This document shows positions 34,347-63,591 of a DNA stretch of 64,000 nucleotides, piece by piece. The translations under genes were made by a program, and so were the position numbers. The stretch's first letter is position 1. Each line of letters opens with the position of its first letter. The DNA lies in assembly GCA_022813675.1 (NCBI GenBank), contig CP063375.1:942001-1006000 (forward strand). The letters are read 5' to 3'. The stretch comes from Deferribacteraceae bacterium V6Fe1 (GTDB lineage: Bacteria; Chrysiogenota; Deferribacteres; Deferribacterales; Deferrivibrionaceae). The notes beneath the pieces are model-generated. The model saw only the letters and a list, made by a program, of their open reading frames with translations, made no database searches and was not told the origin of the DNA.

Positions 34347-35654
34347 ATGTCACTTCGTACGAACAATATAAAAATTGCTGTAATAGGGCTTGGTTATGTT
34401 GGTCTCCCCTTGGCTGTAGAATTTGCCAAGAAATTTAAAGTCGTAGGCTTTGATATAAATGGCAAAAGGGTCAAAGAATTAAGTAACTGTAAAGACATTA
34501 CAAATGAGGTTACGGGTGATCAGCTTAAAGAGGTGTTGACTAAAGAGTTTGATGCCAATAATTGTGGCCTTAAAATTACCGATAATATTGACATAATAAA
34601 AGATTGTAACTTTTATATTGTAACAGTCCCAACCCCGATTGACAGACACAAAAATCCTGATTTGAGACCTCTTATCAGTGCCAGTGAAACAGTGGGAAAG
34701 GTTTTAAAAGAAGGGGATATCGTTGTTTACGAATCGACAGTTTATCCTGGTTGCACCGAAGAGGATTGCGTGCCGGTTTTGGAGAAATTTAGCGGATTAA
34801 AATATAATGTAGATTTTTTTGTAGGGTATTCACCTGAAAGGATCAATCCCGGGGATAAAGAGCACACATTTTCTAAGATTAAAAAGGTAGTGTCAGGCAG
34901 CACAAAAGAGGTGGCTGATATTGTAAATAATATTTATTCTCAAGTGGTAGTGGCAGGTACATTTGTGGCATCTTCAATCAAAGTGGCTGAGGCTGCCAAG
35001 GTAATAGAGAATACTCAAAGAGACATTAATATTGCTTTTATCAATGAACTTTCAATGATTTTTGACAAGATGAATATCGACACATTGGAGGTGCTTGAGG
35101 CTGCCGGTACAAAGTGGAACTTTTTGCCATTCAGGCCTGGTCTTGTAGGCGGTCACTGTATCGGAGTTGACCCATATTACCTTGCACATAAGGCAGAGGA
35201 GCTTGGATATCATCCGGAGATGATTCTTGCCGGCCGTAGGATAAATGACTACATGGGGTTATATGTTGCCAATCAGGTAGTAAAACTAATGATTAAAAAA
35301 GGGTATACGATAAAAGGTGCAAGAGTATTGGTGCTTGGCATCACATTTAAGGAAAATTGTCCTGATGTGAGAAACACAAAGGTAGTGGATGTTATAAATG
35401 AGCTAACCGACTTTGGCTGTAATGTTGATGTATACGACCCTTGGGCTGATAAAGAGGAGGTAAAAAGGGAATATAATCTTGAGCTAATTCAACATTCAAC
35501 ATTAAACATTCAGCATTACGATGCCATTATTCTTGCAGTTGCACATAAAGAATTTAAGGAAATTGAAAAAGAATTGTCAAAATCATCTGCTAATGTTGTA
35601 ATTTATGACATAAAGGGATTCTTTGATAAGGAAATTGTGGATGGGAGGCTGTGA
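34347..35654 (+). CDS. UDP-N-acetylhexosamine 6-dehydrogenase (TviB/WbpO type)
   Basis: NAD-dependent oxidation of the C6 hydroxyl of a UDP-HexNAc to the uronic acid, a precursor for surface polysaccharide. Rossmann motif [16 protein letters not shown], then [29 protein letters not shown] with the catalytic-type Cys region, [28 protein letters not shown] with the active Cys in GGHC. This matches TviB/WbpO better than Ugd. The ATG at 34347 has AAGGAG upstream; the longer frame only reads through heptamer repeats. A repeat-derived insertion ([10 protein letters not shown]) lies near residue 385. First gene of the cluster. Confidence 0.9.
35487..35519 (+). repeat. in-frame heptamer insertion in the UDP-HexNAc dehydrogenase
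   Basis: ATTCAAC units (ATTCAAC, ATTCAAC, ATTAAAC, ATTCAGC) inside the coding frame give [10 protein letters not shown] just before the conserved [10 protein letters not shown] block, in a surface-loop position. Confidence 0.7.
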
Positions 35655-35660
35655 ATTTAT

Positions 35661-35698
35661 AGCACTAAGTGCTAAGTAATAAGTAATAAGTATTTTAC
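35661..35698 (+). repeat. heptamer tandem repeat (GTAATAA type)
   Basis: GTGCTAA, GTAATAA, GTAATAA, GTATTTT immediately after the dehydrogenase. The reverse-oriented counterpart (TTAGCAC, TTAATAC, TTAACAC, TTATCAC) lies at 39150-39178, so the two tracts bracket the segment 35.7-39.1 kb. Confidence 0.7.
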
Positions 35699-35759
35699 AA
35701 TTTAACTTAGTAGTTAGAAGCTAATGCTTGATGCTTATCTTGAAAAAAGGAGATTATCT

Positions 35760-35911
35760 GTAGAGTTATTGGGCAGAGGCTTAAGATTGGGTGTATTGAG
35801 GAGATAGCATACAGAAACGGCTGGATTACAAAAGGACAGCTGTTAAAATTGGCTGATAGCGTTATCAAAAGTGGGTATGGTGAGTATTTGAAGAGAATGG
35901 CAAACGTTTAA
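35760..35911 (+). pseudogene. 3' remnant of an rmlA (glucose-1-phosphate thymidylyltransferase) gene
   Basis: Translation of 35764-35911 reads [17 protein letters not shown] and ends [13 protein letters not shown], the RmlA C-terminus. In another frame just upstream VELLGRG matches the RmlA segment that normally lies about 30 residues earlier. An internal deletion joined the two pieces. The intact rmlA is at 60.1 kb. This marks an earlier dTDP-rhamnose module lost from this end of the cluster. Confidence 0.8.
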
Positions 35912-35942
35912 CTCAAGTGGTCAAAAAGCTGATTAGCTCCCC

Positions 35943-36708: not shown

Positions 36709-38175
36709 CTGCCGTCACCCCATTTTTTGCACCCTTATGCCACGAGTACACTTTTCTTCCTTTTCATATTTCCTAAGCCATTAATAGTCTGTCTCTTTTC
36801 CCCTAACTCCAAATAAAAACTTATCTTAAAAAAGCTAACCATATCAGACTCATAAATTTTTTTCCTAAAATCAAATAGCTTTTTCTCCAGCAATAACAGT
36901 AAATTTCTTATCCCGTCAGAAATACGATAATAAATAAACCTACACACAACCCTACCTTTCCTATTGACCTTTTCCCGTTTAGACATCCTATCCAACATTT
37001 TTGCAGCAATCGTATCAGACTCCACCTGACTTAATACATTCCAACAAAATGAAACTATCGACAATATCGTCTTAAGTGACTCAAATCTCCTCACAAGGCA
37101 TTTCTCCATTCCAAACTGTTGCTTCATAAATCTATAACTCTCTTCAATACGCCACCTCTTAAAGTATGACTTAATAATAAAATATACTTCCTTACTCTTA
37201 CTCATATGACCATTACAAAGAAAATATAACATATTCTTATCTCTACTACATTTAACACTGACAACGGTAACGGCCATACCTTTATAAAAACACTGGGCAT
37301 AACCGTAAGAAATACCGCCATTCTTGTAACGCCTGTTAATATAATTCTCACAAAGTTCCGATACCGACACACCTTTACCCTTATAATCTACATGTCTTAC
37401 ACCTACACTCCTTACAATAAAATTTAATCCATGCCGAAGAAGATATCTTAAAATAATTCCACGATCGTAACCACGGTCAAACAAAAATAAGCCTTTAGAA
37501 ATATACTTATCCCTCAACATATCAAGCATCTTAAATGTCTCCGAATTCTCACTTGTAAACTCATTAGAATTGCTGCTGTATACATCAAGATACAGTGAAA
37601 ATGTCCTCCCTGATAATGGGCTATAGCATACTGCATGATTTAAATGATAGCCTGGAGAAATACGACCACTACTACCATCCCTCACATTAGATATTAGCTC
37701 AAAGCTCTTACCATATGAATGGCTCAAATCTCCACCGTCAATTGATATTAATAATTTATCTTCTGACTTAGTCTCTTCGTATACATAATCAATATTATAA
37801 ACATTAGAAATAAAACCCAAATTCGAATAAGAAAATGTATTCCTTTGCAGTCGCTTAAGTGTATGTTTCACTCCGCTTTTTTCATTGAGATAGCCTGATA
37901 TTTGCGTAAGGTTCAAACTCTTGGTTGCAAAACATCCGGATAACATCTCAAGCAAATACTTTTGTTGGGGCTTTGTAATATAATCATGAAGATTTCTTGT
38001 GATGTTAAGCATTTTTTCCTTCACATTTTTAGCAATTTCACCTATCATAAACTGCCTCCATTTTGTTGTTATTGTTGCTTTTTTTGGTAAAAATAACATA
38101 CAACATTTTGGAGGCATTATCAATCGTAAATAACTGTCAAATATAACTTCTTATATAAAAATGGGGTGATAGCAG
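36709..38175 (-). mobile_element. IS4-type insertion sequence, copy 2
   Basis: About 1467 bp with ends CTGCCGTCACCCCATTTTT and, from the other side, CTGCTATCACCCCATTTTT, the same termini as copy 1. The target duplication is GATTATAC (8 bp) or GGATTATAC (9 bp), depending on one ambiguous G at the right end. It is inserted in the AAA-ATPase/PD-(D/E)XK gene in the same orientation as that gene. Confidence 0.9.
36735..38048 (-). CDS. IS4-family DDE transposase, copy 2
   Basis: Full-length 437-residue homologue of the transposase at 32.7 kb, with the same DDE landmarks (LISIDGGDL, FLFDRGYDRG, RWRIEESYRFMKQQFGMEK). The two differ at many positions through the whole length, so they are sister elements, not a recent duplication. 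Start chosen at the ATG after GGAGGCAGTTT, as in copy 1. Frame intact. Confidence 0.92.
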   Translation of the reverse strand: MIGEIAKNVKEKMLNITRNLHDYITKPQQKYLLEMLSGCFATKSLNLTQISGYLNEKSGVKHTLKRLQRNTFSYSNLGFISNVYNIDYVYEETKSEDKLLISIDGGDLSHSYGKSFELISNVRDGSSGRISPGYHLNHAVCYSPLSGRTFSLYLDVYSSNSNEFTSENSETFKMLDMLRDKYISKGLFLFDRGYDRGIILRYLLRHGLNFIVRSVGVRHVDYKGKGVSVSELCENYINRRYKNGGISYGYAQCFYKGMAVTVVSVKCSRDKNMLYFLCNGHMSKSKEVYFIIKSYFKRWRIEESYRFMKQQFGMEKCLVRRFESLKTILSIVSFCWNVLSQVESDTIAAKMLDRMSKREKVNRKGRVVCRFIYYRISDGIRNLLLLLEKKLFDFRKKIYESDMVSFFKISFYLELGEKRQTINGLGNMKRKKSVLVA

Positions 38176-38962: not shown

Positions 38963-39045
38963 AATTGTCTCCGCAGTAAATAATGCTTCTTTTCACAAAA
39001 TATAAGTGAAAATATTGAATTAGGCAAGGGGGATGCTCGCGGAGT

Positions 39046-39224: not shown

Positions 39225-39249
39225 ATTATACCTGGGGGCTGTTTTTATT

Positions 39250-39510: not shown

Positions 39511-39660
39511 TCAAACCTCCTACACATTAGCCCCCATTGGTAAAATTCAATCATAAAGAATCTTATTTTTCAAATAAAAGTTAAAATATTTGACGAATTG
39601 TCATTCATTTTTTAGTGGTGCATAATGCGGGAAGTGGAAAACGTGTAAACGTTATGCTAC

Positions 39661-39699: not shown

Positions 39700-39707
39700 T
39701 TTTTATA

Positions 39708-39765: not shown

Positions 39766-40020
39766 ATGGAAACAATCTTTTATTCAAAAGCCAGAGAAAA
39801 ACTTGCTGAGCTAATGGATAAAGTCTCAACAGATCATGTGCCCATTACCATTGTTCGCCGGAATAAAGGGAATGTTGTACTGATTTCTGAAGAAGACCTG
39901 CGTTCGTATGAAGAGACTGCATATTTGTTAAAAAGTATTACAAATGCTAGTAGACTTCATGAGTCAGCTCAGGAATTGTCTGAAGGCAAAGGGTATAAAA
40001 AACAATTAATTGAAGATTAG
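39766..40020 (+). CDS. yefM: antitoxin YefM (Phd/YefM family)
   Basis: An 84-residue antitoxin with the N-terminal DNA-binding Phd/YefM fold (METIFYSKAREKLAELMDKV, then VPITIVRRNKGNVVLISEEDLRSYEET) and a charged, probably disordered tail that would neutralise YoeB. I use the ATG at 39766 after AGAGGTG; the open frame extends 33 bases into the promoter, which rules out the longer version. The stop directly abuts the yoeB ATG. Confidence 0.92.
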   Translation: METIFYSKAREKLAELMDKVSTDHVPITIVRRNKGNVVLISEEDLRSYEETAYLLKSITNASRLHESAQELSEGKGYKKQLIED

Positions 40021-40275
40021 ATGGATATTATTTTTTCATCAAATGCATGGGAAGATTATCTCTATTGGCAGGAAAATGATAAAAAGATATTGCGAAAGAT
40101 TAACGAGCTCATAAAGGCAATTGAACGAGAACCTTTCCAAGGCCTTGGAAGCCCTGAACCGCTCAAGTTTCAATTATCCGGTTATTGGTCAAGAAGGATA
40201 AATTTGGAGCATAGGCTTGTTTACACTGTTAAAGATGATAAGATACTAATTCTCCAATGTAGGTACCACTATTGA
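40021..40275 (+). CDS. yoeB: toxin YoeB (RelE-superfamily mRNA interferase)
   Basis: An 84-residue toxin that cuts mRNA in the ribosomal A site. The sequence carries the YoeB pattern: DIIFSSNAWEDYLYWQENDKKILRKINELI, PFQGLGSPEPLKFQLSGYWSRRINLEHRLVYTV and the C-terminal CRYHY containing the catalytic-type His-Tyr. Starts immediately after the yefM stop, so the pair is translated together. Confidence 0.95.
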   Translation: MDIIFSSNAWEDYLYWQENDKKILRKINELIKAIEREPFQGLGSPEPLKFQLSGYWSRRINLEHRLVYTVKDDKILILQCRYHY

Positions 40276-40568
40276 AAGGGAACTAAAAAGTAAAGTCTGC
40301 CAGTTGGATGATATCCTCAAAAATTAGACTTACGGATCACGCAATTTTCCATTTGACATTTCTAATATTTTTCATTATATAGCTCACTGTTACATTGATT
40401 GGGACATAATTTTACAAGTTATTTAATGTCCCGGGTAGTTATTAAATACACATACACAATTAACTTACAGTTCGGTTGCAATCTATGCGGTAGTAGTGTA
40501 TACTGCCATCAACATTGTTCTAAGAGCCAATTAAAACGGGTGGCCTCGGCGGTAGCGTGACGACGAAC
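40276..40568 (+). other. non-coding gap after yoeB
   Basis: No gene is visible in these 290 bases. The only structure I see is GGGACAT...ATGTCCC (40401-40432) with an 18-base loop, too loose for a terminator call. The stretch 40520-40565 is GC-richer than its surroundings. Confidence 0.4.
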
Positions 40569-40603
40569 TGTTCAAAGTTCGGCGTTCAATGTTCAACGTT
40601 AGG
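40569..40603 (+). repeat. left heptamer flank of the four-helix gene at 40.6 kb
   Basis: CTGTTCA, AAGTTCG, GCGTTCA, ATGTTCA, ACGTTAG. It reads as the reverse complement of the tract that follows the gene at 40995, forming an inverted flank around the open reading frame. Confidence 0.75.
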
Positions 40604-40636
40604 GTTTTTAATTTCGATTTTCAAGGTTAAAAGGAT

Positions 40637-41002
40637 ATGAGGATTGAAAGGTTTGAAGATATTGATGCATGGAAAGAGGGAAGGGAGCTTGTGAAAGTAA
40701 TTTACGAGTGTTTTAAAGATAATAAAGATTATAATTTTAAGGATCAAATTCAAAGAGCGGCTATTTCTATAATGTCAAATATTGCAGAAGGTTTTGATAG
40801 AGGTTCTAATAAAGAATTTATTCAATTTTTTGTGATTGCTCGAGCTTCAGCTTCTGAAGTGAGAAGTTTATGTTATGTAGCATTAGATAATGAATATATA
40901 TCAGAACAAATGTTTGAAGATTTAAAAGAAAGGTGTTTAAAAATAAATAGTCTAATAAATGGTTTTATTCGTTATTTAAAAAACTCTAACAGACAACGTT
41001 GA
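40637..41002 (+). CDS. four-helix bundle protein (S23/IVS type), copy A
   Basis: A 121-residue member of the TIGR02436 four-helix family: FEDIDAWKEGRELVKVIYE, DQIQRAAISIMSNIAEGFDRGSNKEFIQFF, ASASEVRSLCYVALD. These proteins were first known from 23S rRNA intervening sequences and resemble Avd of diversity-generating retroelements; no rRNA or reverse transcriptase is nearby. The last codons (SNRQR) already lie in the right-hand repeat tract. Inverted heptamer tracts flank it. A nearly identical copy, frameshifted at the end, is at 63.6 kb. Confidence 0.9.
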   Translation: MRIERFEDIDAWKEGRELVKVIYECFKDNKDYNFKDQIQRAAISIMSNIAEGFDRGSNKEFIQFFVIARASASEVRSLCYVALDNEYISEQMFEDLKERCLKINSLINGFIRYLKNSNRQR

Positions 41003-41112
41003 ACTTTGAACGTAGAACGTAGAACGTAGAACTTAGAACTTAGAAAGTTGAACTTAGAACCTTGAACGTAGAACGTAGAACATAGAACATTGAACCTTGA
41101 ACCTTGAACTTT
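40995..41112 (+). repeat. right heptamer flank, about 17 units
   Basis: The longest tract: GTTGAAC, TTTGAAC, GTAGAAC (three), TTAGAAC, TTAGAAA, GTTGAAC, TTAGAAC, CTTGAAC, GTAGAAC (two), ATAGAAC, ATTGAAC, CTTGAAC, CTTGAAC. The first base pairs of each unit vary while GAAC is constant. It ends just before the manC ribosome site. Confidence 0.85.
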
Positions 41113-41126
41113 TCACGGAGGTTAAA

Positions 41127-42575
41127 ATGCTAAACCTAATCTTATCCGGTGGCAGTGGGACGAGGCTGTGGCCTTTGAGCAGGCGGCTGATGCCCAAACA
41201 GTTTTTAAAGCTTTTTGATGACAAGTCACTGTTTCAGTTGACTGTTGAGAGAAATATAAAAGTGTGCGAAAAATTTTTGGTGATTTCAAACGAAGAGCAA
41301 TATTTTTTGGCATTGGATCAGATAGAAGAGCAAGCATCACTTAATATACAAAATTCAACATTTAACATTAGCAATGCAAAATTCATCCTTGAGCCTTTTG
41401 GCAGAAACACTGCCGGTGCAATCGCCTTCGGTGCATTTCATTGCGACGAAGATGAAATACTTTTTGTGACTCCAAGCGACCATTTGATAAAAGATGAAAA
41501 TAGATATATCGAAGCCATAAATAAAGCCAAAGCTTTGGCAGAGCAAGACTATCTTGTGACATTTGGCATTACTCCGGACTGCCCAAATACAGGGTATGGG
41601 TATATTCAAGCAAAGCCTGAATTAAATGATAAATTGGGAATTTTGAATGTTGAATTATTTCACGAAAAACCAGACTTAGATACAGCAATCAAATATTTAG
41701 AAGAAAATTCAAAATTTAACAATCAGTATTCAGTATTGTTTTTGTGGAATAGCGGTATGTTTATGTTTAAAGCGGGTGTCTATCTTGAAGAGCTCCAAAA
41801 ATATGCTCCCGAAGTATACGAATCAAGTAAATTGGCTTATGAAAATGCAAAAAAGATAAATGGCAATCAGCTTAGGATATTAGACAGATATATGGAAAAG
41901 ATTCCAAATATCAGCATAGACTATGCTGTCATGGAAAAGAGCGATAAGATAAAGGCAATCCCAGGTCAGTTTGAATGGAGCGATGTCGGCAGTTTTGACA
42001 GTCTAATAGAAAATATCGATATAAAAAGTAACGAGCTTACCACTGAGGTAGATAGTAAAAATAATTTTTATTATACTGATAATAATAAAAAGGTAATCTC
42101 TACGATTGGCCTTGAGGGTTATATCGTTATTGATACAAATGATGCACTTTTAATAGCTAAAAAAGGACAAACCCAAAAAGTAAAAAATATTGTTGAAAAA
42201 CTTAAAATTCAAAATTCAAAATTAATAATTGAACATAGCAAAGTAAATCGCCCTTGGGGCACATATGAAGTATTGATAGATGAAGAAAAATATAAGATAA
42301 AAAGGATTATGGTAAAGCCTGGCAAGAGATTGTCTTTGCAAAAGCACTTTCATAGAAATGAGCACTGGATAGTGGTAAGTGGCACCGCAGAGGTGCAAGT
42401 GGGGGATAAAACATTTCTTGTAAGACCTAATGAAAGTACGTATATAAAGATGGGCGAAGTACACAGACTAGGTAACCCAGGCCATATGCCGGTAATACTT
42501 ATCGAAGCTCAAGTGGGTGAATATACTGGTGAGGATGATATAGTTAGGATTGAGGATGATTTTGAGAGGGATTAA
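41127..42575 (+). CDS. manC: mannose-1-phosphate guanylyltransferase / mannose-6-phosphate isomerase
   Basis: Makes GDP-mannose from mannose-1-phosphate and GTP; the C-terminal cupin isomerises fructose-6-phosphate. N-terminal LILSGGSGTRLWPLSRRLMPKQFLKL, ILEPFGRNTAGAIAFGA, FVTPSDHLIKD and WNSGMFMFKA; C-terminal RPWGTYEVL, KRIMVKPGKRLSLQKHFHRNEHWIVVSGTA. The ATG at 41127 has CGGAGG upstream. Three peptides coded by ATTCAA-type heptamers interrupt conserved blocks (before ILEPFGRN, before WNSGMF, before NRPWGTYE). All keep the frame, so the enzyme may still work. Confidence 0.93.
   Translation: MLNLILSGGSGTRLWPLSRRLMPKQFLKLFDDKSLFQLTVERNIKVCEKFLVISNEEQYFLALDQIEEQASLNIQNSTFNISNAKFILEPFGRNTAGAIAFGAFHCDEDEILFVTPSDHLIKDENRYIEAINKAKALAEQDYLVTFGITPDCPNTGYGYIQAKPELNDKLGILNVELFHEKPDLDTAIKYLEENSKFNNQYSVLFLWNSGMFMFKAGVYLEELQKYAPEVYESSKLAYENAKKINGNQLRILDRYMEKIPNISIDYAVMEKSDKIKAIPGQFEWSDVGSFDSLIENIDIKSNELTTEVDSKNNFYYTDNNKKVISTIGLEGYIVIDTNDALLIAKKGQTQKVKNIVEKLKIQNSKLIIEHSKVNRPWGTYEVLIDEEKYKIKRIMVKPGKRLSLQKHFHRNEHWIVVSGTAEVQVGDKTFLVRPNESTYIKMGEVHRLGNPGHMPVILIEAQVGEYTGEDDIVRIEDDFERD
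41340..41374 (+). repeat. in-frame heptamer insertion 1 in manC
   Basis: Codes SLNIQNSTFNISNAK directly before the conserved FILEPFGRNTA. Units are variants of ATTCAAC/ATTTAAC. Confidence 0.7.
41704..41739 (+). repeat. in-frame heptamer insertion 2 in manC
   Basis: Codes ENSKFNNQYSVLF just before WNSGMFMF, where the family normally has a short Y-x-W-type linker. Units AATTCAA, AATTTAA, then CAGTATT twice. Confidence 0.55.
42201..42237 (+). repeat. in-frame heptamer insertion 3 in manC
   Basis: Codes LKIQNSKLIIEHSK in the linker between the transferase and cupin domains, directly before NRPWGTYE. Units AATTCAA, AATTCAA, AATTAAT, AATTGAA. Confidence 0.7.
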
Positions 42576-43178: not shown

Positions 43179-44363
43179 ATGTCAAAGAAGATAGCTTTAA
43201 TAACAGGGATTACAGGTCAGGATGGTTCATATTTGGCCGAATATTTACTTTCGAAAGGCTATGAGGTTCACGGAATTAAAAGAAGGACTTCACTTTTTAA
43301 TACAGAAAGAATAGACCATTTGTACAAAGACCCTCATGAGGAGAAGACCAATTTTTATCTTCACTATGGTGATTTGACCGATAGCTTAAATGTGACAAGT
43401 GTGGTTCAAAAGGTCAAGCCTGATGAGATTTATAATCTTGCGGCTCAGTCTCATGTGGCAGTAAGCTTTGAACAGCCTGAATATACCGCCCAGATTGATG
43501 CCGTGGGCACATTAAGAGTATTGGAAGCAGTAAGACTGTTAGGGTTAGCTGAAAAAACAAAAATTTACCAAGCATCCACATCTGAGCTTTATGGTAAAGT
43601 ACAGGCAATTCCACAAAATGAAAAGACACCCTTTTATCCTCGCAGTCCATATGGTGCAGCAAAGATATATGCTTACTGGATTACAGTAAACTATAGAGAA
43701 TCTTACAATATGTTTGCATGCAATGGGATTCTTTTTAATCATGAATCACCTGTAAGGGGTGAGACATTTGTTACAAGAAAAATCACACGAGGCTTATCTA
43801 GAATATTTCTTGGTCTTGATAAAAAAATATACCTTGGCAACCTCAATGCCAAAAGGGATTGGGGGCATGCGGAAGATTTTGTAAAAGGGATGTATTTGAT
43901 ACTACAGCAGCCTGAGCCGGATGACTTTGTATTGGCAACAGGTAAGACTACAGAGATAAGAGAATTTGTAAGGAAATGCTGTGAAAAATTAGGGTGTAAC
44001 ATAGAGTTTACTGGCAGCGGAGTTGATGAAAAAGGAATATTAAATAATGTTGAATTTTCTATGTTGAATGATAAATTAAAAGAAATTAGAGTGAATGAAC
44101 AAATAATTCAACATTTAACATTAAAAATTAAAAATTTAATTGGCAAGCCAATTGTTGAAGTTGACCCAAGATATTTCAGGCCTGCGGAGGTTGACATACT
44201 CCTTGGCGATGCTACTAAAGCCAAAGAAAAGTTAGGTTGGGAGCCAAAGAAAACCCTCGACGATTTAATTAATGATATGCTCAAATATGACCTTGAAAAG
44301 AGCTACAGAGAGCTAGTGTTGAAGCAGCATGGATTTGATATTCAGGGAAGCTGTGGGGTGTGA
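43179..44363 (+). CDS. gmd: GDP-mannose 4,6-dehydratase
   Basis: First step from GDP-mannose to GDP-L-fucose (or GDP-rhamnose/perosamine). SDR motif [17 protein letters not shown], then [42 protein letters not shown], catalytic STSELYGK with [12 protein letters not shown], and [19 protein letters not shown]. It is about 35 residues longer than usual because a palindromic repeat insertion splits the segment between DEKGI and [15 protein letters not shown]. That loop lies close to the tetramer contact region, so effect on activity should be tested. Confidence 0.94.
44041..44150 (+). repeat. palindromic heptamer insertion inside gmd
   Basis: Left arm holds AATGTTGAAT and ATGTTGAATGA (44045-44071), right arm ATAATTCAACATTTAACATT (44103-44124), with a spacer of about 30 bases. 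The insertion keeps frame and adds about 35 residues. Because the left arm is in the orientation that would give TGA in frame if perfect, it survives only as partial units. Confidence 0.7.
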
Positions 44364-44470
44364 AGAGGTGAGTAGAGGTTAATAAGCGTTAGTAGGGGTT
44401 AATAGGGGTTAGTAAGGGTTAATAGGGGTTAGTAAGGGTGAGTAGGGGTGATTAGGGGTAGTGTGGGGTG
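44364..44470 (+). repeat. left repeat flank of the four-helix gene at 44.5 kb
   Basis: About nine units of 10 bases: AGTAGGGGTT, AATAGGGGTT, AGTAAGGGTT and variants. This is a different unit length from the heptamers but takes the same place, directly before a four-helix gene. AACCTCTACA-type units (the opposite strand sense) lie at the other end. Confidence 0.8.
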
Positions 44471-44474
44471 CAAA

Positions 44475-44912
44475 ATGAGGAATTGGAAGGATTTGATTGT
44501 TTGGCAGGAGTGCCATAAGCTGGTGATTGAAATTTATAATTTGATGAAAAGTTTTCCAAAGGATGAAACGTTTGGATTATGCTCTCAAATAAAAAGAGCG
44601 GCAGTTTCAATTCCAACAAATATTGTAGAAGGACACTCAAAAAGCTCAAATAAAGAATTTGTAAGATTTTTGTATATTTCTAGAGGTTCTTTAGAAGAAT
44701 TGAAATATTTACTTTATTTATCTAAGGATTTAGGATTTATTAATCTACAAGACTATGGATTATTAGAGGAAAAATTATCCAAAATTGGCTATCTTTTAAA
44801 TAATTTTATGAAATCACTAAACAAAACCTCTACAACCTCTAATACTTCTACAACCTCTAAAACCTCTACAACCTTTACTAACCTTAAATTAGCGGAACTT
44901 CCCAATGAATAA
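44475..44912 (+). CDS. four-helix bundle protein (S23/IVS type), copy B
   Basis: Family motifs WKDLIVWQECHKLVIEIYNL, CSQIKRAAVSIPTNIVEGHSKSSNKEFVRFLYISRGSLEEL. It is a distinct lineage from copies A and C. The ATG at 44475 is preferred: upstream is only repeat. The last 30 residues (NKTSTTSNTSTTSKTSTTF) are read through the right-hand repeat tract, so the original stop has been lost or the tail is repeat-made. The stop overlaps fcl by 8 bases. No function shown; perhaps tied to the repeats that flank it. Confidence 0.88.
   Translation: MRNWKDLIVWQECHKLVIEIYNLMKSFPKDETFGLCSQIKRAAVSIPTNIVEGHSKSSNKEFVRFLYISRGSLEELKYLLYLSKDLGFINLQDYGLLEEKLSKIGYLLNNFMKSLNKTSTTSNTSTTSKTSTTFTNLKLAELPNE
44822..44890 (+). 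repeat. right repeat flank of the four-helix gene at 44.5 kb
   Basis: ACCTCTACA-type 9-base units (ACCTCTACA, ACCTCTAAT, ACTTCTACA, ACCTCTAAA, ACCTCTACA, ACCTTTACT) coding a Ser/Thr-rich tail. Reverse complement AGAGGTT matches the start of the left flank (AGAGGTTAATA). Confidence 0.75.
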
Positions 44913-46122
44913 GAATAGCAAAATAGCAGTTTTTGGAGCAACTGGCCTTGTGGGCAGCGCTATTGTGCGAAAATTGTTTGAAAAAGGATATACAAATATT
45001 ATTGCAAATTATCATAACAGAAAGCCAAATAATTCAACATTCAACATTCAACATTCAACATTAAATACAAATTCTATCGAGTGGATAAGGTTAGACTTAT
45101 TGGATTTTGTTGCTGTAAAAGAATTTTTTGAAGCAAAAAGACCAGAGTTTGTATTTCTTGCTGCAGCAAAAGTTGGAGGAATAGTTGCAAATAATACTTA
45201 CAGAGCCGACTTTATATATGAAAACCTTCAGATTCAAAATAATGTTATCCATAATGCATATAAATATGGGGTTAAAAAATTACTTTTTTTAGGTAGTACC
45301 TGTATCTATCCGAAGGAATGCCCTCAGCCAATCAAAGAGGAATACCTTCTAACAGGTCCACTTGAATATACAAATGAACCATATGCCATAGCAAAAATAG
45401 CAGGCATTAAGATGTGTGAGAGCTTTAATCTTCAATATGGCACAAACTTCATCTCAGTAATGCCAACAAATCTTTATGGAGAAAATGACAACTTTGACCT
45501 TGAAAAATCTCATGTCCTGCCAGCTCTTATTAGAAAGATACATCTTGGGAAATGTTTAGAAGAAGAAAACTTTGAAGCTATAAGAAAAGATTTGGATAAA
45601 AATCCAATTGAAGGTGTAGATGGAAGAGCAAGTAAAGAAGAGATTTTAAACATATTAAAAAATTATGGTATTTCATTCAAAATTCAAAATTCAAAATTCA
45701 AAATTTCCGTAGAAATTTGGGGATCGGGAGAACCGAGACGCGAATTTCTATGGAGTGATGATATGGCAGATGCCTGTGTGTATCTTATGGAGCAAGTCAA
45801 TTTCGAAGATATCATTAAACAAAACAATTCAACACTCAAAATTCAACATTCAACATTATCAAATGAGTTTTTTAACGAAGGTAGAAACACTCATATTAAT
45901 ATCGGCACCGGCAAAGATATCTCTATAAAGGATTTAGCATATCTAATAAAAGATATTATTGGCTTTAAAGGTGACTTTTGCTTTAATACACAAAAACCAG
46001 ATGGGACGATGAGAAAAGTGACAGATGTGAGCAAGCTACACTCTCTTGGATGGAAGCATAAGGTAGAGTTGGAAGAGGGGATTAAGAGGGTTTATGGGTG
46101 GTATTTGGAGAATGAGAAGTAA
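44905..46122 (+). CDS. fcl: GDP-L-fucose synthase
   Basis: Epimerase/reductase giving GDP-L-fucose from the gmd product. Motifs: AVFGATGLVGSAIVRKL, FLAAAKVGGIVANNTYRADFI, FLGSTCIYPKECPQPIKEEYLLTGPLEYTNEPYAIAKIAGIK with catalytic Tyr and Lys, PTNLYGENDNFD, VWGSGEPRREFL-like block. At 405 residues it is about 90 longer than typical. Three heptamer-coded inserts and a lengthened segment near 205-255 account for this. All inserts are in frame. Confidence 0.92.
   Translation: MNKNSKIAVFGATGLVGSAIVRKLFEKGYTNIIANYHNRKPNNSTFNIQHSTLNTNSIEWIRLDLLDFVAVKEFFEAKRPEFVFLAAAKVGGIVANNTYRADFIYENLQIQNNVIHNAYKYGVKKLLFLGSTCIYPKECPQPIKEEYLLTGPLEYTNEPYAIAKIAGIKMCESFNLQYGTNFISVMPTNLYGENDNFDLEKSHVLPALIRKIHLGKCLEEENFEAIRKDLDKNPIEGVDGRASKEEILNILKNYGISFKIQNSKFKISVEIWGSGEPRREFLWSDDMADACVYLMEQVNFEDIIKQNNSTLKIQHSTLSNEFFNEGRNTHINIGTGKDISIKDLAYLIKDIIGFKGDFCFNTQKPDGTMRKVTDVSKLHSLGWKHKVELEEGIKRVYGWYLENEK
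45029..45075 (+). repeat. in-frame heptamer insertion 1 in fcl
   Basis: Four near-perfect ATTCAAC units coding NNSTFNIQHSTLNTNS before the conserved LDLLD segment. Confidence 0.8.
45674..45705 (+). repeat. in-frame heptamer insertion 2 in fcl
   Basis: Four perfect AATTCAA-type units (ATTCAAA repeated) coding FKIQNSKFKI before the WGSGEPRREFLW block. Confidence 0.8.
45826..45860 (+). repeat. in-frame heptamer insertion 3 in fcl
   Basis: ATTCAAC, ACTCAAA, ATTCAAC, ATTCAAC, ATTATCA coding NSTLKIQHSTLS, before the HINIGTG block. Confidence 0.8.
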
Positions 46123-46185
46123 AAGGTGAGAGGGAAGAGGTAAGAAGTGAGAAGTAAGAAGTGAGAAGTGAAATGTGAGAGAGTT
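46122..46185 (+). repeat. left heptamer flank of the four-helix gene at 46.2 kb
   Basis: GTGAGAG, GGAAGAG, GTAAGAA, GTGAGAA, GTAAGAA, GTGAGAA, GTGAAAT, GTGAGAG. Its inverse (TTCTCAC/TTTCACG) follows the gene. Confidence 0.85.
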
Positions 46186-46548
46186 ATGAAAACACATAAG
46201 GATTTGGATGCATGGAAGGAGGCTATAATATTGGTAAAAGAAATATATGGGTTAACTTTATCTTTTCCTAAAGAAGAAATATATGGTTTGACTTCTCAGA
46301 TTAGAAGATGTGCGGTTTCAATTCCAAGTAATATAGCAGAAGGTGCAGCTAGAAATAGCACCAAGGAGTTTATACAGTTTTTATATATTGCATTAGGATC
46401 ATGCGCTGAGTTAGATACTCAATTGATAATTGCAAAAGAATTAGGATATATTAACGAAGAATGTCTGGAATTGTTTAGCAAAATAGAAAGAATTAAAAGT
46501 AAGATTTTAGGACTCATCAGGTATCTGAGGAACAAAAATGTCAAATAA
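46186..46548 (+). CDS. four-helix bundle protein (S23/IVS type), copy C
   Basis: A 120-residue family member: THKDLDAWKEAIILVKEIYGLT, SQIRRCAVSIPSNIAEGAARNSTKEFIQFLYIALGSCAELDTQLIIAKELGYI. ATG at 46186; the frame open upstream of it is repeat. Inverted GTGAGAA/TTCTCAC tracts flank it at once on both sides, the clearest example of the arrangement in the window. Function unknown. Confidence 0.9.
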   Translation: MKTHKDLDAWKEAIILVKEIYGLTLSFPKEEIYGLTSQIRRCAVSIPSNIAEGAARNSTKEFIQFLYIALGSCAELDTQLIIAKELGYINEECLELFSKIERIKSKILGLIRYLRNKNVK

Positions 46549-46783
46549 CATTTCACGTTTCACATCTCACTTCTCACGTTTCACTTCTCACGTTCAACGT
46601 TTAATGACTCATCCCGGCTTCTGCCGCTACAGTGCAAACACTGCCTGGCTTTTTGCAGAAAAAATTTTACGTATGGTTGTGGGGCTTTTTGTAGGAGTTT
46701 GGGTTGCGAGGTATCTTGGACCTAGCAAATACTGGCTTTTAAGTTATCAAACAGATTGTGGAAAATATATAAAGATTTGCTAA
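46538..46783 (+). pseudogene. 5' remnant of a wzx-type O-antigen flippase
   Basis: After a repeat-coded start the frame reads HPGFCRYSANTAWLFAEKILRMVVGLFVGVWVARYLGPSKY, the beginning of a polysaccharide flippase of the MATE/MVF type. The match ends near 46735 and the rest is unrelated. The 35 bases after that lead to the rfbF ribosome site. The break marks where the tyvelose cassette replaced the older genes; a complete flippase lies at 51.9 kb. Confidence 0.8.
46543..46605 (+). repeat. right heptamer flank of the four-helix gene at 46.2 kb
   Basis: CATTTCA, CGTTTCA, CATCTCA, CTTCTCA, CGTTTCA, CTTCTCA, CGTTCAA, CGTTTAA: reverse complement of the left flank units. Read through in the next frame it supplies the N-terminal SRFTSHFSRFTSH of a truncated flippase gene. 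Confidence 0.85.
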
Positions 46784-54756: not shown

Positions 54757-54938
54757 TAATAATTTATAGTGAGATGAGCATGTGGAATTGATTATAAGGA
54801 TTTGGAAGTATGGAAGAAAAGTATTACTTTAATTAAATCTATTTATAGAGTTCGTAATGGTTTTCCACAGGAAGAAAGGTATGGCTTGGTTGATCGAATC
54901 AAAAGAAGTGCAGTTTTAATTTCTGCTAATATTGCTTG

Positions 54939-55242
54939 CCCTGTGGAATAAAATGTTTTATGTGTATGTGTTGCAGAGTGAAAAAGATATGAAATTTTAT
55001 GTTGGTATAAATCAAATTTACGTGAGAGAGTTAGCAGCACAAAAATGCAAACGTAAAATCAACTAAACATAGGAGACTACTAAAATTGATTTATTATGAA
55101 GCTTGTATTAGTCAAAAAGGCGCATTGAAAAGAGAAAAATATTTAAAATCAACTTACGGAAAAAGATATATAAAAAATAGATTAAAAAATTATTTGGATA
55201 CTATAGAATAATTGAATTTGATGTTTTTGATATTCCACAGGG
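54939..55242 (+). mobile_element. 304-bp GIY-YIG mini-element with 12-bp inverted repeats
   Basis: Bounded by CCCTGTGGAATA (54939-54950) and its perfect reverse complement TATTCCACAGGG (55231-55242), and almost filled by one small GIY-YIG gene. It interrupts the four-helix gene at its conserved SANIAEG codons. No clear target duplication is seen. Mobility driven by the nuclease, as for homing-type elements, is inference. Confidence 0.8.
54953..55211 (+). pseudogene. GIY-YIG endonuclease gene, frameshifted
   Basis: Starts MFYVYVLQSEKDMKFYVG (the Y-V-Y and Y-V-G forms of GIY-YIG). After CKRKIN the frame hits a stop; shifting by one base recovers TKHRRLLKLIYYEACISQKGALKREKYLKSTYGKRYIKNRL, with the catalytic Glu (YYEA). 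One extra A near 55058 explains the break. Small UvrC-N-type proteins of about 85 residues like this are very common as stand-alone genes in bacteria. Confidence 0.85.
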
Positions 55243-55454
55243 TAAAGGGAGTGGAAGAAATGCTGCAAAGGAATTCATACAATTTTTATATATTTCATTA
55301 GGTAGTGCCTATGAATTGGAAACACATTTAATAATATCAAGATAAGTTTGATTTTTGAAAGATATTGATGATATAATAGAACAAATTAATGAAATTAGAA
55401 AAATGCTGAATGGATTAATCAATTCTTTAAAGAACAAGGTGATCAAAAATGAAT

Positions 55455-56600: not shown

Positions 56601-57839
56601 ATGAACAATCCACAAGTCAGGAATACCAAATCCCGATTTACCAATCACCCATCACGGCTCCTATATAAACTAATTGACGACACTTACTTAGACGAAAATG
56701 GCAAAATAAAAGAAGAATATAAATTTAGCATCAATATTCCAAAATTCAAAATCCAAAATTCAAAATTAATTGGAAAGCCTGAGGATAAATTTGAAACCAT
56801 GCTTTTTTTGCCTGAAGGAGAAGGAAGGAAAGGAGAAGGTGGTTTAAGAACAAAGGGATATTTTAAATTTTCATACGAAAATTTAATGGTAAATGATGAA
56901 TGCTTGATTATGGATGAAAGTAAAAAAGATAATATTAGTGATAAAAATAAAATTCAAAATCCAACATCTAAAATTCAACATTCAAAAAAGTGGTACATAG
57001 TCGACCACGACGGCAACCCAGTTGAGCCCGCTCCTGACTACATTCAAACACAAATAACCTCTCACCTCTCACAGCTCACCTCTCACAGCTCACCTCTCAC
57101 GTCACTGCCCCTAATCACTGTCATCACTGTTGTCTACAATGGCGAAAAATACCTTGAAGAGACCATTCAAAGCGTAATAAACCAAACCTATCCAAATGTA
57201 GAATATATTATAATAGATGGTGGCTCAACTGACGGAACACTTGATATAATTAAGAAGTATGAAGATTATATTGATTACTGGGTGAGTGAGAAGGATAATG
57301 GAATTTATGATGCGATGAATAAGGGAGTGGATGTTGCACTGGGTAAATGGGTGTATTTTTTAGGGTCTGGAGATATTTTTTATAGTTCCCATGTTTTAAA
57401 ATCTATTTTTATCGATCTTAAGGATTTGGGATCTGCCTTTATTCTTTTTGGGGATATTATTTATGACGATGGTAGATTGTTTAAAAGTCGATACGGTACA
57501 AGTCTTTATTATAGAAATACAATACATCACCAAGGAGCATTTTATCGACGAAAGTTATTTGATAAATTTCGCTATCAAAGTAATTATATTGTTTCTGCAG
57601 ATTACGAATTAAATTTAATGCTTTTTTGTAATAAAAATCCTTCTTTAAATGTGAAAATTATAATAGCAAAATGCAATAATGAAGGTATTTCTAATCAAGT
57701 AAACTTACGGGGATATATTGAAGAAATTGAGATTAGACATAAATATCTGGGGAGAATAAATTTACTGAAATACGATTTGTTGACATTGCTGAGGTATTTA
57801 ATTAAGAGGTTTTCAAAAAATGTATTACTACGTAAGTGA
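56601..57839 (+). CDS. glycosyltransferase family 2 with repeat-laden N-terminal extension
   Basis: The catalytic GT-A domain runs from about residue 172: LITVITVVYNGEKYLEETIQSVINQTYPNVEYIIIDGGSTDGTLDII, NGIYDAMNKGVDVALGKWVYFLGSGD; C-terminal HHQGAFYRRKLF and SADYELNLML match the WcaA/colanic type. The first 170 residues are not a known domain and include three repeat-coded segments (FKIQNSKLIG, KIQNPTSKIQHSK, QITSHLSQLTSHSSPLTSL). The usual short lead of such enzymes is 5-10 residues, so the real functional part may begin near 170. Overlaps the polymerase gene by 20 bases. Confidence 0.85.
   Translation: MNNPQVRNTKSRFTNHPSRLLYKLIDDTYLDENGKIKEEYKFSINIPKFKIQNSKLIGKPEDKFETMLFLPEGEGRKGEGGLRTKGYFKFSYENLMVNDECLIMDESKKDNISDKNKIQNPTSKIQHSKKWYIVDHDGNPVEPAPDYIQTQITSHLSQLTSHSSPLTSLPLITVITVVYNGEKYLEETIQSVINQTYPNVEYIIIDGGSTDGTLDIIKKYEDYIDYWVSEKDNGIYDAMNKGVDVALGKWVYFLGSGDIFYSSHVLKSIFIDLKDLGSAFILFGDIIYDDGRLFKSRYGTSLYYRNTIHHQGAFYRRKLFDKFRYQSNYIVSADYELNLMLFCNKNPSLNVKIIIAKCNNEGISNQVNLRGYIEEIEIRHKYLGRINLLKYDLLTLLRYLIKRFSKNVLLRK
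56739..56768 (+). repeat. in-frame heptamer insertion 1 in the 56.6-kb glycosyltransferase
   Basis: AATTCAA, AATCCAA, AATTCAA, AATTAAT coding FKIQNSKLI. Confidence 0.75.
56950..56988 (+). repeat. in-frame heptamer insertion 2 in the 56.6-kb glycosyltransferase
   Basis: AATTCAA, AATCCAA, CATCTAA, AATTCAA, CATTCAA coding KIQNPTSKIQHSK. Confidence 0.75.
57047..57107 (+). repeat. in-frame heptamer insertion 3 in the 56.6-kb glycosyltransferase
   Basis: ACCTCTC, ACCTCTC, ACAGCTC, ACCTCTC, ACAGCTC, ACCTCTC, ACGTCAC coding a Thr/Ser/His/Leu-rich linker right before the GT domain. This unit resembles the TTCTCAC flank of the 46.2-kb four-helix gene rather than ATTCAAC. Confidence 0.8.
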
Positions 57840-59148: not shown

Positions 59149-59160
59149 GAGAAGTTTGCA

Positions 59161-60000: not shown

Positions 60001-60051
60001 ATTAAAACAGTTAAATATATAAAAATTATTAGATATTTTTAAGGAGCTTTT

Positions 60052-60936: not shown

Positions 60937-60973
60937 CTAAAGATGGTTACTTATTAATAGTTTGGAGTTTAAA

Positions 60974-62368
60974 ATGAAGGTAGAGAGCACTGTTTTGAAA
61001 GGTGTATTAATAATAGAAACTGACTGTTTTGGAGATAATCGTGGCTGGTTTACCGAAAGCTATAATAAAGAGAGATTTGCAAAATATGGTTTGGATACAG
61101 ATTTTGTGCAAGATAATCATTCTTATTCTACCCAAAAAGGTGTGTTGAGAGGTATTCATTTTCAAAATAATCCTAAAGCTCAATCAAAGCTTGTCAGGTG
61201 TACTAAGGGGAAGATTCTTGATGTAGTTGTGGACTTGAGGAAAGGGTCAGATACTTACAAAAAATGGATTGCTGTAGAACTGAGTGAGCAAAATAGAAAG
61301 CAGATTTTTATACCAAAAGGCTATGGACATGGCTTTGTAACTCTTACGGATAATGTTGAATTACAATATAAGGTAGATGAGTATTATTCTAAAGAGTGTG
61401 ATAGAAGTATAAAATATAATGATCCCGAATTAGGGATTAATTGGGGTGTTGAAAATCCTATTTTATCGGAGAAGGATGGCAATGCACCATATCTTAAAGA
61501 TAGCGATTGCAATTTTAGTATTAAAGTTCTTGTTACGGGCGTCAATGGGCAGCTTGGTTATGATGTGGTACTAAGATTAAAAGAATTGGGGATAGATGTA
61601 ATTGGCGTAGATGTGAATGATTTTGATATTACTGATGAGATTCAAACTGTCCAAAATATTTTAACAATAAAACCTGATGTAGTGGTGCATTGTGCCGCTT
61701 ATACTGCTGTGGATAAAGCTGAGGAAGAGAGAAATAAATGCTATTCTGTAAATACTGTTGGTACTAGAAATATTGCATTAGCATGTAAAGAGATTGATGC
61801 AAAGATGGTCTATATCTCTACAGATTATGTTTTTGATGGCAAAGGGGTGGAGGCTTTTGATGAAAATCATGATACATGTCCGATTAATTATTATGGCTTT
61901 ACCAAAGCAGAAGGGGAGAAGATTGTTGATGAGATACTTAATAAATATTTTATAGTAAGAACATCTTGGGTATTTGGGATTAACGGAAACAATTTTATAA
62001 AAACGATGTTAAAGCTATCAGAGACTAAAGATACATTAAAAGTAGTAAATGACCAATATGGCTCACCTACTTATACAAAAGATCTTGCGGAGCTAATTTG
62101 CGATATGATTCAGACTAATAAGTATGGTGTGTATCATGGAACAAATGAAGGTTATTGTAGTTGGTATGAGCTTGCAGTAGAGATATTCAAGATTTCAGGG
62201 AAAGATGTTAATGTAATTCCTGTACCTTCTGAAGAGTACCCCACTAAGGCGGTAAGACCAAAAAATTCTCGTCTATCAAAAGGGAATCTTGATGCTAATA
62301 ATTTTAAAAGATTGCCTGATTGGAAAGAAGCTGTTAAAAGGTATATAGATTCTTTAAGTGAAGTTTAA
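60974..62368 (+). CDS. rmlCD: bifunctional dTDP-sugar epimerase / dTDP-4-dehydrorhamnose reductase (RmlC-RmlD fusion)
   Basis: One chain of 464 residues joins the last two steps to dTDP-L-rhamnose. RmlC (about 1-180): FGDNRGWFTESYNKERF, DNHSYSTQKGVLRGIHFQ with the catalytic His, RCTKGKILDVVVDLRKGSDTY. RmlD (about 185-464): KVLVTGVNGQLGYDVVLRL, DVVVHCAAYTAVDKAEEE, YISTDYVFDG, PINYYGFTKAEGE, VRTSWVFG. The linker is only a few residues. I use the ATG at 60974 after GGAG; a TTG lies 12 bases upstream. Confidence 0.95.
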   Translation: MKVESTVLKGVLIIETDCFGDNRGWFTESYNKERFAKYGLDTDFVQDNHSYSTQKGVLRGIHFQNNPKAQSKLVRCTKGKILDVVVDLRKGSDTYKKWIAVELSEQNRKQIFIPKGYGHGFVTLTDNVELQYKVDEYYSKECDRSIKYNDPELGINWGVENPILSEKDGNAPYLKDSDCNFSIKVLVTGVNGQLGYDVVLRLKELGIDVIGVDVNDFDITDEIQTVQNILTIKPDVVVHCAAYTAVDKAEEERNKCYSVNTVGTRNIALACKEIDAKMVYISTDYVFDGKGVEAFDENHDTCPINYYGFTKAEGEKIVDEILNKYFIVRTSWVFGINGNNFIKTMLKLSETKDTLKVVNDQYGSPTYTKDLAELICDMIQTNKYGVYHGTNEGYCSWYELAVEIFKISGKDVNVIPVPSEEYPTKAVRPKNSRLSKGNLDANNFKRLPDWKEAVKRYIDSLSEV

Positions 62369-62466
62369 GCATAGTAATTTTTTATTATGAGAGGATCTCT
62401 TTTGTTGCTTCAAACGCATAATTTAAAACAAAAGTGATAATATGTTTATCTTAAAAAGGAGGTATT

Positions 62467-63591
62467 GTGAGCTACAATAATTACAATATATTAGTTACTG
62501 GTGGAGCAGGTTTTATTGGATCAAATTTTATTAGGTACCTTTTTGAAAAAGTAAACTTTGATGGAATAATTGTAAATTTTGATCTTCTGACATATGCCGG
62601 TAATTTAAAAAATCTTGAAGATATTTCCGAAAAATATAGCGGGAAAAATTATTTTTTCGAGCATGGAGATATCTGTGATAAAAAAAGAGTAGGAGAAATA
62701 TTTGATAAGTATGATATAAATATGGTGGTACATTTTGCTGCCGAAAGTCATGTGGACCGTTCTATACTGGGACCTGAAGAGTTTGTAAGGACAAATGTTC
62801 AAGGTACATTTACTCTTTTAGAAGCTGCACGCACATACTGGCTAAATAACAATGGCAAATCAGACAAAGCAAAGCTAACATTCAACATTCATAATTCTTC
62901 ATTAACAAAACGTTTTCATCATATTAGTACAGATGAAGTGTATGGTTCTCTTGGCGATATGGGCTATTTCTACGAAACGACGCCATATGACCCAAGGAGC
63001 CCTTATTCTGCTTCAAAAGCGGCATCGGATCATTTAGTAAGAGCTTATTACCATACTTATAATCTTCCGGTTACTATTTCCAACTGTTCAAATAATTATG
63101 GTCCTTACCATTTTCCTGAAAAATTGATTCCTCTTATGATATTGAATATGTTGGATGAAAAACCTTTGCCTGTATATGGTGATGGTAAAAACATTAGAGA
63201 TTGGTTATATGTTGAAGACCATTGTAGTGCTGTGTGGAAGATTTTGACAGAAGGTGAGGTTGGAGAGACATATAATATAGGAGGGGAAAATGAGTGGGAG
63301 AATATCAAGCTTGTAAATCGGTTATGTGAGATTGTTGCAAACAAAATGGGTAAGGATAAAGATTATTATAAAAAGCTTATTACTTTTGTAAAAGACAGAC
63401 CAGGACATGATAGAAGATATGCAATAAATTGTGATAAAATTAAGAATAAGTTAGGATGGAAACAAAGTGTAGATTTTGAAAAAGGGCTTGAAAAAACTGT
63501 GAATTGGTATCTAAACAATAAAGAATGGGTAGAGACCGTAAAGTCTGGCGAATATAAAAAATGGGTAGAGATGAATTATGATAAAAGATAA
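62467..63591 (+). CDS. rmlB: dTDP-glucose 4,6-dehydratase
   Basis: Second enzyme of the rhamnose pathway. ILVTGGAGFIGSNFIRYL, HFAAESHVDRSILGPEEFVRTNVQGTFTLLEA, FHHISTDEVYGSLG, YDPRSPYSASKAASDHLVRAYYHTYNLPVTISNCSNNYGPYHFPEKLIPLMI. GTG start with AAGGAGG upstream. At 374 residues it is about 20 longer than usual because of a heptamer-coded insert (AKLTFNIHNSSLTK) just before the conserved RFHHISTDEVYG. It ends the rhamnose module. Confidence 0.96.
   Translation: MSYNNYNILVTGGAGFIGSNFIRYLFEKVNFDGIIVNFDLLTYAGNLKNLEDISEKYSGKNYFFEHGDICDKKRVGEIFDKYDINMVVHFAAESHVDRSILGPEEFVRTNVQGTFTLLEAARTYWLNNNGKSDKAKLTFNIHNSSLTKRFHHISTDEVYGSLGDMGYFYETTPYDPRSPYSASKAASDHLVRAYYHTYNLPVTISNCSNNYGPYHFPEKLIPLMILNMLDEKPLPVYGDGKNIRDWLYVEDHCSAVWKILTEGEVGETYNIGGENEWENIKLVNRLCEIVANKMGKDKDYYKKLITFVKDRPGHDRRYAINCDKIKNKLGWKQSVDFEKGLEKTVNWYLNNKEWVETVKSGEYKKWVEMNYDKR
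62871..62915 (+). repeat. in-frame heptamer insertion in rmlB
   Basis: CTAACATT, CAACATT, CATAATT, CTTCATT units coding LTFNIHNSSLTK immediately before RFHHISTDEVYG. Confidence 0.65.

Follow-up and report, generated by a model that had tools for sequence, protein, structure and literature searches.

The stretch of DNA analyzed here, the window, comprises 64,000 nucleotides of Deferribacteraceae bacterium V6Fe1 (contig CP063375.1, positions 942,001 to 1,006,000) and contains a polysaccharide cluster in which heptanucleotide repeats are translated in frame within the genes for a UDP-HexNAc dehydrogenase, manC, gmd, fcl, a GT2 glycosyltransferase and, weakly, rmlB. The same cluster carries free-standing genes of the 23S-rRNA-IVP family (hereafter IVP; PF05635, TIGR02436, a four-helix bundle) bordered by inverted repeat arrays. 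A little-studied IVP hairpin element appears to be carried by many bacterial phyla between, and sometimes inside, genes, and the in-gene repeats look like its offcuts.

Heptamer tracts and IVP elements in a polysaccharide cluster

The leading tandem period in the window is 7, together with its multiples 14, 21 and 28, and shuffled sequence gives 0. We scored in-gene tracts, whose usual unit is ATTCAAM, by their matches to (ATTCAAN)x4, with a maximum of 24 positions. The original prediction had placed heptamer-coded peptides in these six enzymes, and tracts are indeed present at all of its positions, with scores of 19-24/24. In 400 kb sampled from this genome and read on both strands, two positions score at least 20 and none at least 21, so that rmlB and manC sites 1 and 2 count as weak tracts. 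The double unit ATTCAAMATTCAAM has 11 matches in the 2.36-Mb genome, all 11 in the window and all 11 within genes. Period-7 tracts in open reading frames (ORFs) number 9 per 57.5 kb in the window versus 1 per ~370 kb in 20 stretches spread over the genome, a ~58-fold excess. The in-gene DNA had also been taken to be the same as that of the intergenic tracts, which is not strictly so: the intergenic units in the window (GTTCAAN/AACGTWG, ATTACGA, ATTATGA, AGAAGTG and GGTTAGTAGG) are related to ATTCAAM and not identical to it. Our list goes beyond the earlier one by a third glycosyltransferase tract, with unit TCTCACC, and by antisense stretches in manC and gmd. Amino-acid (aa) gains are relative to the structures named.

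35487..35517, plus strand: UDP-HexNAc dehydrogenase, in-frame tract, 22/24; ~+6 aa versus 4R16
41339..41373, plus strand: manC site 1, in-frame tract (NIQNSTFNISN), 20/24; ~+9 aa versus 2QH5
41640..41663, minus strand: manC antisense heptamer stretch read in frame (GILNVELF), with ATTCAACATTCAAA on the minus strand at 41642-41655; part of a +8 aa segment missing in most homologues
41707..41735, plus strand: manC site 2, in-frame tract (ENSKFNNQYSV), 20/24; ~+9 aa versus 2QH5 and most homologues
42197..42230, plus strand: manC site 3 tract (KLKIQNSKLII), 21/24; no added length versus repeat-free homologues in the alignment
44042..44072, minus strand: gmd antisense heptamer stretch read in frame (NNVEFSMLN)
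44106..44139, plus strand: gmd in-frame tract, 21/24; whole segment +20 aa versus 1DB3
45032..45065, plus strand: fcl site 1, in-frame tract (NSTFNIQHSTLN) after strand beta2, 24/24; ~+22 aa versus 7ANH; loop with pLDDT <50
45675..45705, plus strand: fcl site 2, in-frame tract (FKIQNSKFKI), modelled as a beta-hairpin, 24/24; ~+9 aa versus 7ANH
45827..45857, plus strand: fcl site 3, in-frame tract (NSTLKIQHSTL), 23/24; ~+16 aa versus 7ANH; pLDDT <50
56737..56767, plus strand: GT2 glycosyltransferase tract 1 (KFKIQNSKL), in the N-terminal part (the GT2 domain starts at residue 173), 21/24
56949..56985, plus strand: GT2 glycosyltransferase tract 2, in frame, 21/24
57057..57103, plus strand: GT2 glycosyltransferase tract 3, unit TCTCACC (SHLSQLTSHSSPLTS), in frame; resembles the downstream arm of IVP element 3 (own-cluster arm match 26, resampling P 0.000)
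62880..62907, plus strand: rmlB, weak in-frame tract (FNIHNSSL), 19/24; +5 aa versus 8DU1

The unit ATTCAAM contains no stop codon in any forward frame. The TGA in its complement GTTGAAT limits the reading of antisense copies to a few codons, in agreement with the antisense stretches seen. Length gains were read off alignments with solved homologues (7ANH for fcl, 1DB3 for gmd, 2QH5 for manC, 4R16 for the dehydrogenase and 8DU1 for rmlB). Judged from these alignments, most tract sites are loops that lengthen the protein; the expectation that every insert would do so holds for most sites, with gains from +5 to ~+22 aa, and fails at manC site 3. AlphaFold models of modest quality (pLDDT 73 and 65), built from 7-8 sequences, show fcl site 2 as a beta-hairpin extension predicted with confidence (strands E256-261 and E264-272); fcl sites 1 and 3, like manC site 1, fall in loops of low confidence. 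The most likely effect of the inserts on the enzymes is none or mild, the added residues being passenger peptides.

Could these be ordinary family loops, with A/T-rich codons that are periodic by chance? The fcl site 1 loop is naturally long in another fcl subfamily, and rmlB gains just 5 aa. Periodicity of 7 bp at 21-24/24 positions is, against this, never attained in 400 kb of the genome. We find the explanation hardly tenable as a whole and refuted for fcl, gmd, the dehydrogenase and the glycosyltransferase; for rmlB it may still apply.

The free-standing IVP genes of the cluster comprise three intact and two broken copies, and six of the seven IVP matches in the genome fall in the window. 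The window proteins match the family at E 6e-33 to 5e-40, above curated cut-offs, and have 2GSC as a relative in the PDB. Every intact window IVP is bordered by tandem arrays, the upstream array being the reverse complement of the downstream one.

40573..41112, plus strand: IVP element 1; upstream arm GTTCAAN 40573-40602, ORF 40637-41002, downstream arm AACGTWG 40995-41112; PF05635 6e-33
44352..44890, plus strand: IVP element 2, between gmd and fcl; arm GGTTAGTAGG 44367-44459, ORF end 44912, arm AACCTCTAC 44823-44884; PF05635 1.4e-38
46129..46591, plus strand: IVP element 3, after fcl; arm AGAAGTG 46129-46178, ORF 46168-46548, arm CACTTCT 46548-46591; PF05635 5e-40
54808..55342, plus strand: broken IVP gene, interrupted by a decayed GIY-YIG-like ORF with inverted ends
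63587..64000, plus strand: second copy of element 1, after rmlB; arm GTTCAAT..., frameshifted IVP, arm running beyond the window end

Arm complementarity is 26.0 versus a mean of 12.0 for element 1, 20.5 versus 12.1 for element 2 and 29.0 versus 12.5 for element 3. The downstream arm of element 2, AACCTCTAC, encodes the C-terminal tail of its IVP ORF. Element 3 folds as RNA with a z-score of -3.7, matched by 0 of 100 shuffles, with the ORF in the loop.

Other copies and arrays lie elsewhere in the genome. The seventh IVP (genome 339,488-339,805; L033, L152) has 8-bp rather than 7-bp arrays on both sides, and a similar locus is found in both congeners (L042; L043). Three AACGTWG arrays like the element 1 arm, with no IVP gene detected nearby, occupy L019 10378-17108 (genome ~850-857 kb) and may be orphan arms. 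Just outside the window, L021 carries near-perfect intergenic arrays of ~17 ATCACTT and ~12 ACTTAGA units (1215-1338 and 2420-2506; genome 1007.2 and 1008.4 kb). The GIY-YIG-type ORF (~290 bp, FYVYVLQSEKDKKFY...) splits the IVP gene at the same codon, after NIA/NIV, in three genomes (window 54937-55240; L136 12291-12590; L149 8363-8661). It has end inverted repeats CCCTGTGGAATA / TATTCCACAGGG, is open in G010 and G011 and decayed in the window, and looks like a small homing-type element nested within the IVP gene.

As had been noted, the cassette at 46.8-54.2 kb has no heptamer tract in a tandem-repeat scan of the window; its reductase/epimerase ORF (48690-49577) holds an 18-bp tandem repeat at 49004-49053, in frame (NTDTFF). 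Two diverged copies of an IS4-like transposase gene (32624-34012, plus strand; 36735-38123, minus strand) enclose the dehydrogenase at the start of the cluster, a YefM/YoeB-type toxin-antitoxin pair, read by eye, lies upstream of IVP element 1 (39766-40320), and a single 468-aa ORF at 60962-62368 reads as an rmlC-rmlD fusion.

Inverted heptamer arms around IVP genes

Among 33 full-length IVP elements of the phylum, arm self-complementarity averages 21.1 versus 11.9 between elements (20,000 permutations, maximum 16.1; P<=5e-5, somewhat optimistic because the set contains near-duplicates). A cleaner test comes from a profile scan of 84,980 species genomes, which yielded 80 IVP loci in more than 20 phyla, biased to relatives of IVP 3 because the profile was a 3-row IVP alignment. 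At the 67 usable loci, self-complementarity is 19.8 versus 11.6 for cross-element pairs (permutation maximum 14.0, P<=5e-5) and 10.8 for stretches 1.2 kb outside. Tandem tracts are 11 times denser close to the gene, with 78 per 133 flank bins within 250 nt of the IVP ORF versus 53 per 979 bins beyond, and those near an IVP mostly have periods of 7 (48), 14 (14) or 8 (11).

Phase-aligned units of the upstream arms give the consensus GTRANNN (4.4 bits, null maximum 3.3), and the reverse-complemented downstream arms give it independently (5.0 bits, null maximum 3.6). Plasmids carry the arrangement too: six cyanobacterial plasmid IVPs each have heptamer arrays on both sides, mostly inverted and direct in Pseudanabaena. 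These IVPs, from Nostoc, Calothrix, Trichormus and Pseudanabaena, are flanked by AGTAGGG/CCCTACT and similar arrays and separate cas6 from cas4 or nrdB from nrdA, or sit amid integrase and tra genes. Within the phylum of V6Fe1, ATTCAAM pairs are found in 7 of 9 IVP-bearing versus 8 of 42 IVP-less genomes (Fisher P 0.0014).

The same loops in relatives and the origin of the tracts

Four genomes from four families of one order (G000, G006, G010 and G014) have an IVP between gmd and fcl. The window gmd is 64-93% and its fcl ~70-78% identical to those of the other genomes with an IVP at this junction; the four junction IVPs share 27-47% identity, belong to different clades and are non-orthologous. 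IVPs thus turn over at this junction, which is empty in G049, where the gmd stop overlaps the fcl start.

The loops themselves are filled by different heptamers among relatives: ATTCAAC, ATCACMG, TATTTGT and CAAGTAG/CTACTCA. ATTCAAC-type arrays occupy fcl sites 1-3 in G000 and sites 1 and 2 in G006; site 3 of G006 is a CAAGTAG/CTACTCA hairpin, G010 has ATCACMG arrays, and G014 has other short repeats. Two of these fillings, G006 fcl site 3 (fold z -5.6) and G010 fcl site 2 (fold z -4.0), are complete ORF-less inverted array pairs in frame. The proposal of one repeat family entering many genes stands as to in-frame entry into several unrelated enzymes, mostly in loops that many homologues lack, and is not supported as to a single fixed family, since the heptamers of relatives differ. 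Its authors had also named, as evidence against insertion, homologues outside the lineage that carry the same residues without the DNA repeat, or inserts that are ordinary loops. What we find goes part of the way: residues at these sites are present beyond the genus too, encoded in G006 by the same DNA heptamers at fcl sites 1 and 2 and in gmd and by a different heptamer hairpin at fcl site 3, and in other lineages the fcl loops are ordinary or missing.

Tracts in genes beside IVPs occur in other phyla as well, in HisF of a Nitrospirae metagenome-assembled genome and in a UDP-GlcNAc 2-epimerase and a capsule epimerase of Bacteroidales; the multi-phylum list from which these come contains 8- and 12-bp repeats besides true heptamers, and the examples were checked by eye. 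The Nitrospirae IVP lies directly upstream of HisF, which carries a 36-residue segment ending in heptamer code (LSPITHHPLPITS; L192 3341-3451) between two blocks that are contiguous in 4EVZ. Since HisF has such a tract, in-frame tracts are not confined to sugar enzymes, though these are frequent hosts. Across all genomes, 10 of 34 in-gene tracts match an arm of their own cluster's IVPs above random sets at P<0.05 (the row for manC site 2 is void, its coordinates being ~20 nt off), among them fcl site 1, fcl site 2 and gmd of G006, whose neighbouring IVP arm is ATTCAAC, one fcl tract of G010 and others in other phyla.

We consider it probable that solo arms or hairpins of the IVP element family are translated as the in-frame peptides and kept where they are stop-free and tolerated by a loop. 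A full element consists of an arm, an IVP ORF and the reverse-complement arm, with an Avd-like IVP (PF05635) as its sole gene, so its transcript can form a long hairpin whose loop holds the ORF, as in the intervening sequences (IVSs) of 23S rRNA. Such elements would settle at junctions of neighbouring genes, and ORF-less hairpins or single arms might also land within genes. Survivors there would be those that kept the frame, mostly in the stop-free orientation (ATTCAAC rather than GTTGAAT), in a loop tolerant of extra residues. Their units could later be homogenized and slowly replaced by slippage, conversion or re-insertion, which would account for the different heptamers of relatives at the same loops. 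The in-gene tracts would then descend from IVP elements, as offcuts or ORF-less forms, their placement would be by insertion and not by local expansion alone, and the IVP protein may act on the arms.

Several observations weigh against this origin. The ATTCAAM tracts of the window match no resident IVP arm above chance, the nearest being GTTCAAN, one base off, and ATTCAAC deviates from the GTRANNN consensus. Strong in-gene hairpins are found in relatives only, and we found neither a target-site duplication nor a precise empty/filled pair for any in-gene tract. Heptamer arrays exist apart from any IVP gene, as in the three at ~850-857 kb. Among 106 elements, period-7 arms were seen upstream in 40, downstream in 38 and on both sides in 22, so that many loci have no detectable arrays on both sides. 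Direct matches between flanks are raised too, because some loci have complete hairpins on both sides. Two stricter forms of the proposal were rejected for the window: that all in-gene tracts share the unit of the resident IVP arm, where only the TCTCACC tract does, and that all are hairpins, where the in-gene tracts fold no better than shuffles.

The main rival, independent slippage, draws on some of the same facts. It holds that heptanucleotide simple sequence repeats (SSRs) grew in place in tolerant loop codons, the nearness of IVPs being a coincidence or that of another SSR-rich site. The unchanged length at manC site 3, the mismatch between ATTCAAM units and resident arms and the arrays away from IVPs all favor it, and heptanucleotides are reported to outnumber other long SSRs in most of the bacterial genomes surveyed, polymerase slippage having been put forward (cited in PMC4679880). 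Slippage does not readily explain why the same or a close unit recurs within one 28-kb cluster in six genes that are unrelated, the exact double unit being absent from the rest of the genome, nor the ~58-fold excess over sampled ORFs, the complete inverted array pairs in frame in relatives, or the sharing of units in relatives together with the IVP association. The fcl site 1 array is almost identical in DNA and equal in length between G000 and G006, whereas third positions outside the arrays are 48% identical, which points to homogenization or exchange and not to passive descent. We regard slippage as a serious though unlikely alternative.

The constant length of fcl site 1 also bears on a reading in which the arrays are contingency loci, switching polysaccharide enzymes on and off by frameshift, as 7 is no multiple of 3. 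Contingency loci are classically found in sugar and surface genes, phase variation of high-molecular-weight (HMW) adhesins is driven by heptanucleotide SSRs in the promoter (PMC8262952), and two fcl arrays are perfect across 4.4 units. The arrays are, on the other hand, short and several tracts degenerate, HisF, which is no surface gene, also has a tract, and at fcl site 1 the array is equally long in two families whose third positions have strongly diverged (G000 and G006, one genome per species). Contingency seems improbable.

Returning to the IVP elements, we suggest more tentatively that phylum-spanning hairpin elements, an IVP gene between inverted GTRANNN-type arms, may be the source of many unexplained bacterial heptamer families. 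Their ORF-less derivatives would repeatedly add new in-frame peptides to surface-sugar and housekeeping enzymes, for the most part in the orientation without stops and often at loops already used.

Comparison with known systems

The IVP protein family, rRNA IVSs, heptameric SSRs and in-frame Rickettsia palindromic elements (RPEs) are all already known. No paper turned up that connects inverted heptamer arms with free-standing IVP genes or describes heptamer-coded peptides in enzymes, in a literature search that lacked most subscription journals. We know of no function for the 23S-IVP/S23p family. Our findings tie it, across more than 20 phyla, to heptamer repeats, reported as the commonest long bacterial simple repeats, and give each a testable partner, with a candidate nucleic-acid hairpin for the IVP protein and a candidate carrier for the repeats.

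The elements share with the 23S rRNA IVS the same protein family (S23p/IVP ORF, PF05635, TIGR02436) and an ORF in the loop between complementary ends. They differ from it in location, since the window copies lie in a polysaccharide cluster and not in a 23S rRNA helix, and others are at protein-gene junctions (cas6/cas4, nrdA/nrdB, tra), also on plasmids. They differ in their arms as well, which are long tandem arrays whose unit and period vary between elements, and in the ORF-less pieces translated within protein genes. The 23S IVS of Coxiella has heptameric repeats (GACAGAT) in strain-variable number just before the S23p ORF, with complementary ends and excision by RNase III (PMC4990558). Among independent hints that IVP elements include heptamers, this one is the strongest.

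Heptameric SSR families, such as cyanobacterial STRR/GGGGAYT, Xanthomonas GGGAATC and Beggiatoaceae TAACTGA (PMC4692102; PMC4679880), resemble the present arrays in being 7-bp direct repeats that are mostly intergenic, and arrays of this sort flank the cyanobacterial plasmid IVPs; in the window, tandem 7-bp repeats exceed chance. Their G-rich repeats are reported to be under-represented in coding regions, and these two papers, as searched, link no IVP gene with the repeats. The likeness to diversity-generating retroelements lies in the protein, as IVP and Avd are described as homologous (PMC10053308); the IVP at 44448 matches the DivGenRetAVD model at 2.9e-11 without reaching the model's cut-off. 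In the ORF list of the window, on which no dedicated reverse-transcriptase search was made, neither a reverse transcriptase nor a template/variable repeat was recognized near the IVP elements.

The original prediction had regarded RPEs as the only close precedent, which our findings do not support. RPEs are ~150 bp long, carry a conserved peptide and lie in frame within many unrelated genes (PMC10969869). Such in-frame entry, seen here in six enzymes with rmlB the weakest case, is the RPE signature and speaks for an RPE-like family of small mobile repeats unrelated to IVP. Unlike in RPEs, no conserved palindromic body of ~100-150 bp surrounds the tracts, in further genomes either; copies have no common flanking sequence and share only tandem heptamers in single tracts, the unit differs between genomes at the same site, and the IVP arms consist of the same kind of array. 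A separate RPE-like family is therefore very improbable, and the nearest relatives of the tracts are instead the arms of the free-standing 23S-IVP elements in the same cluster. Taken together, these tracts offer a second natural case, beside the RPE, of repeat DNA entering many enzymes in frame, here with the repeat swapped at the same loop within one order.

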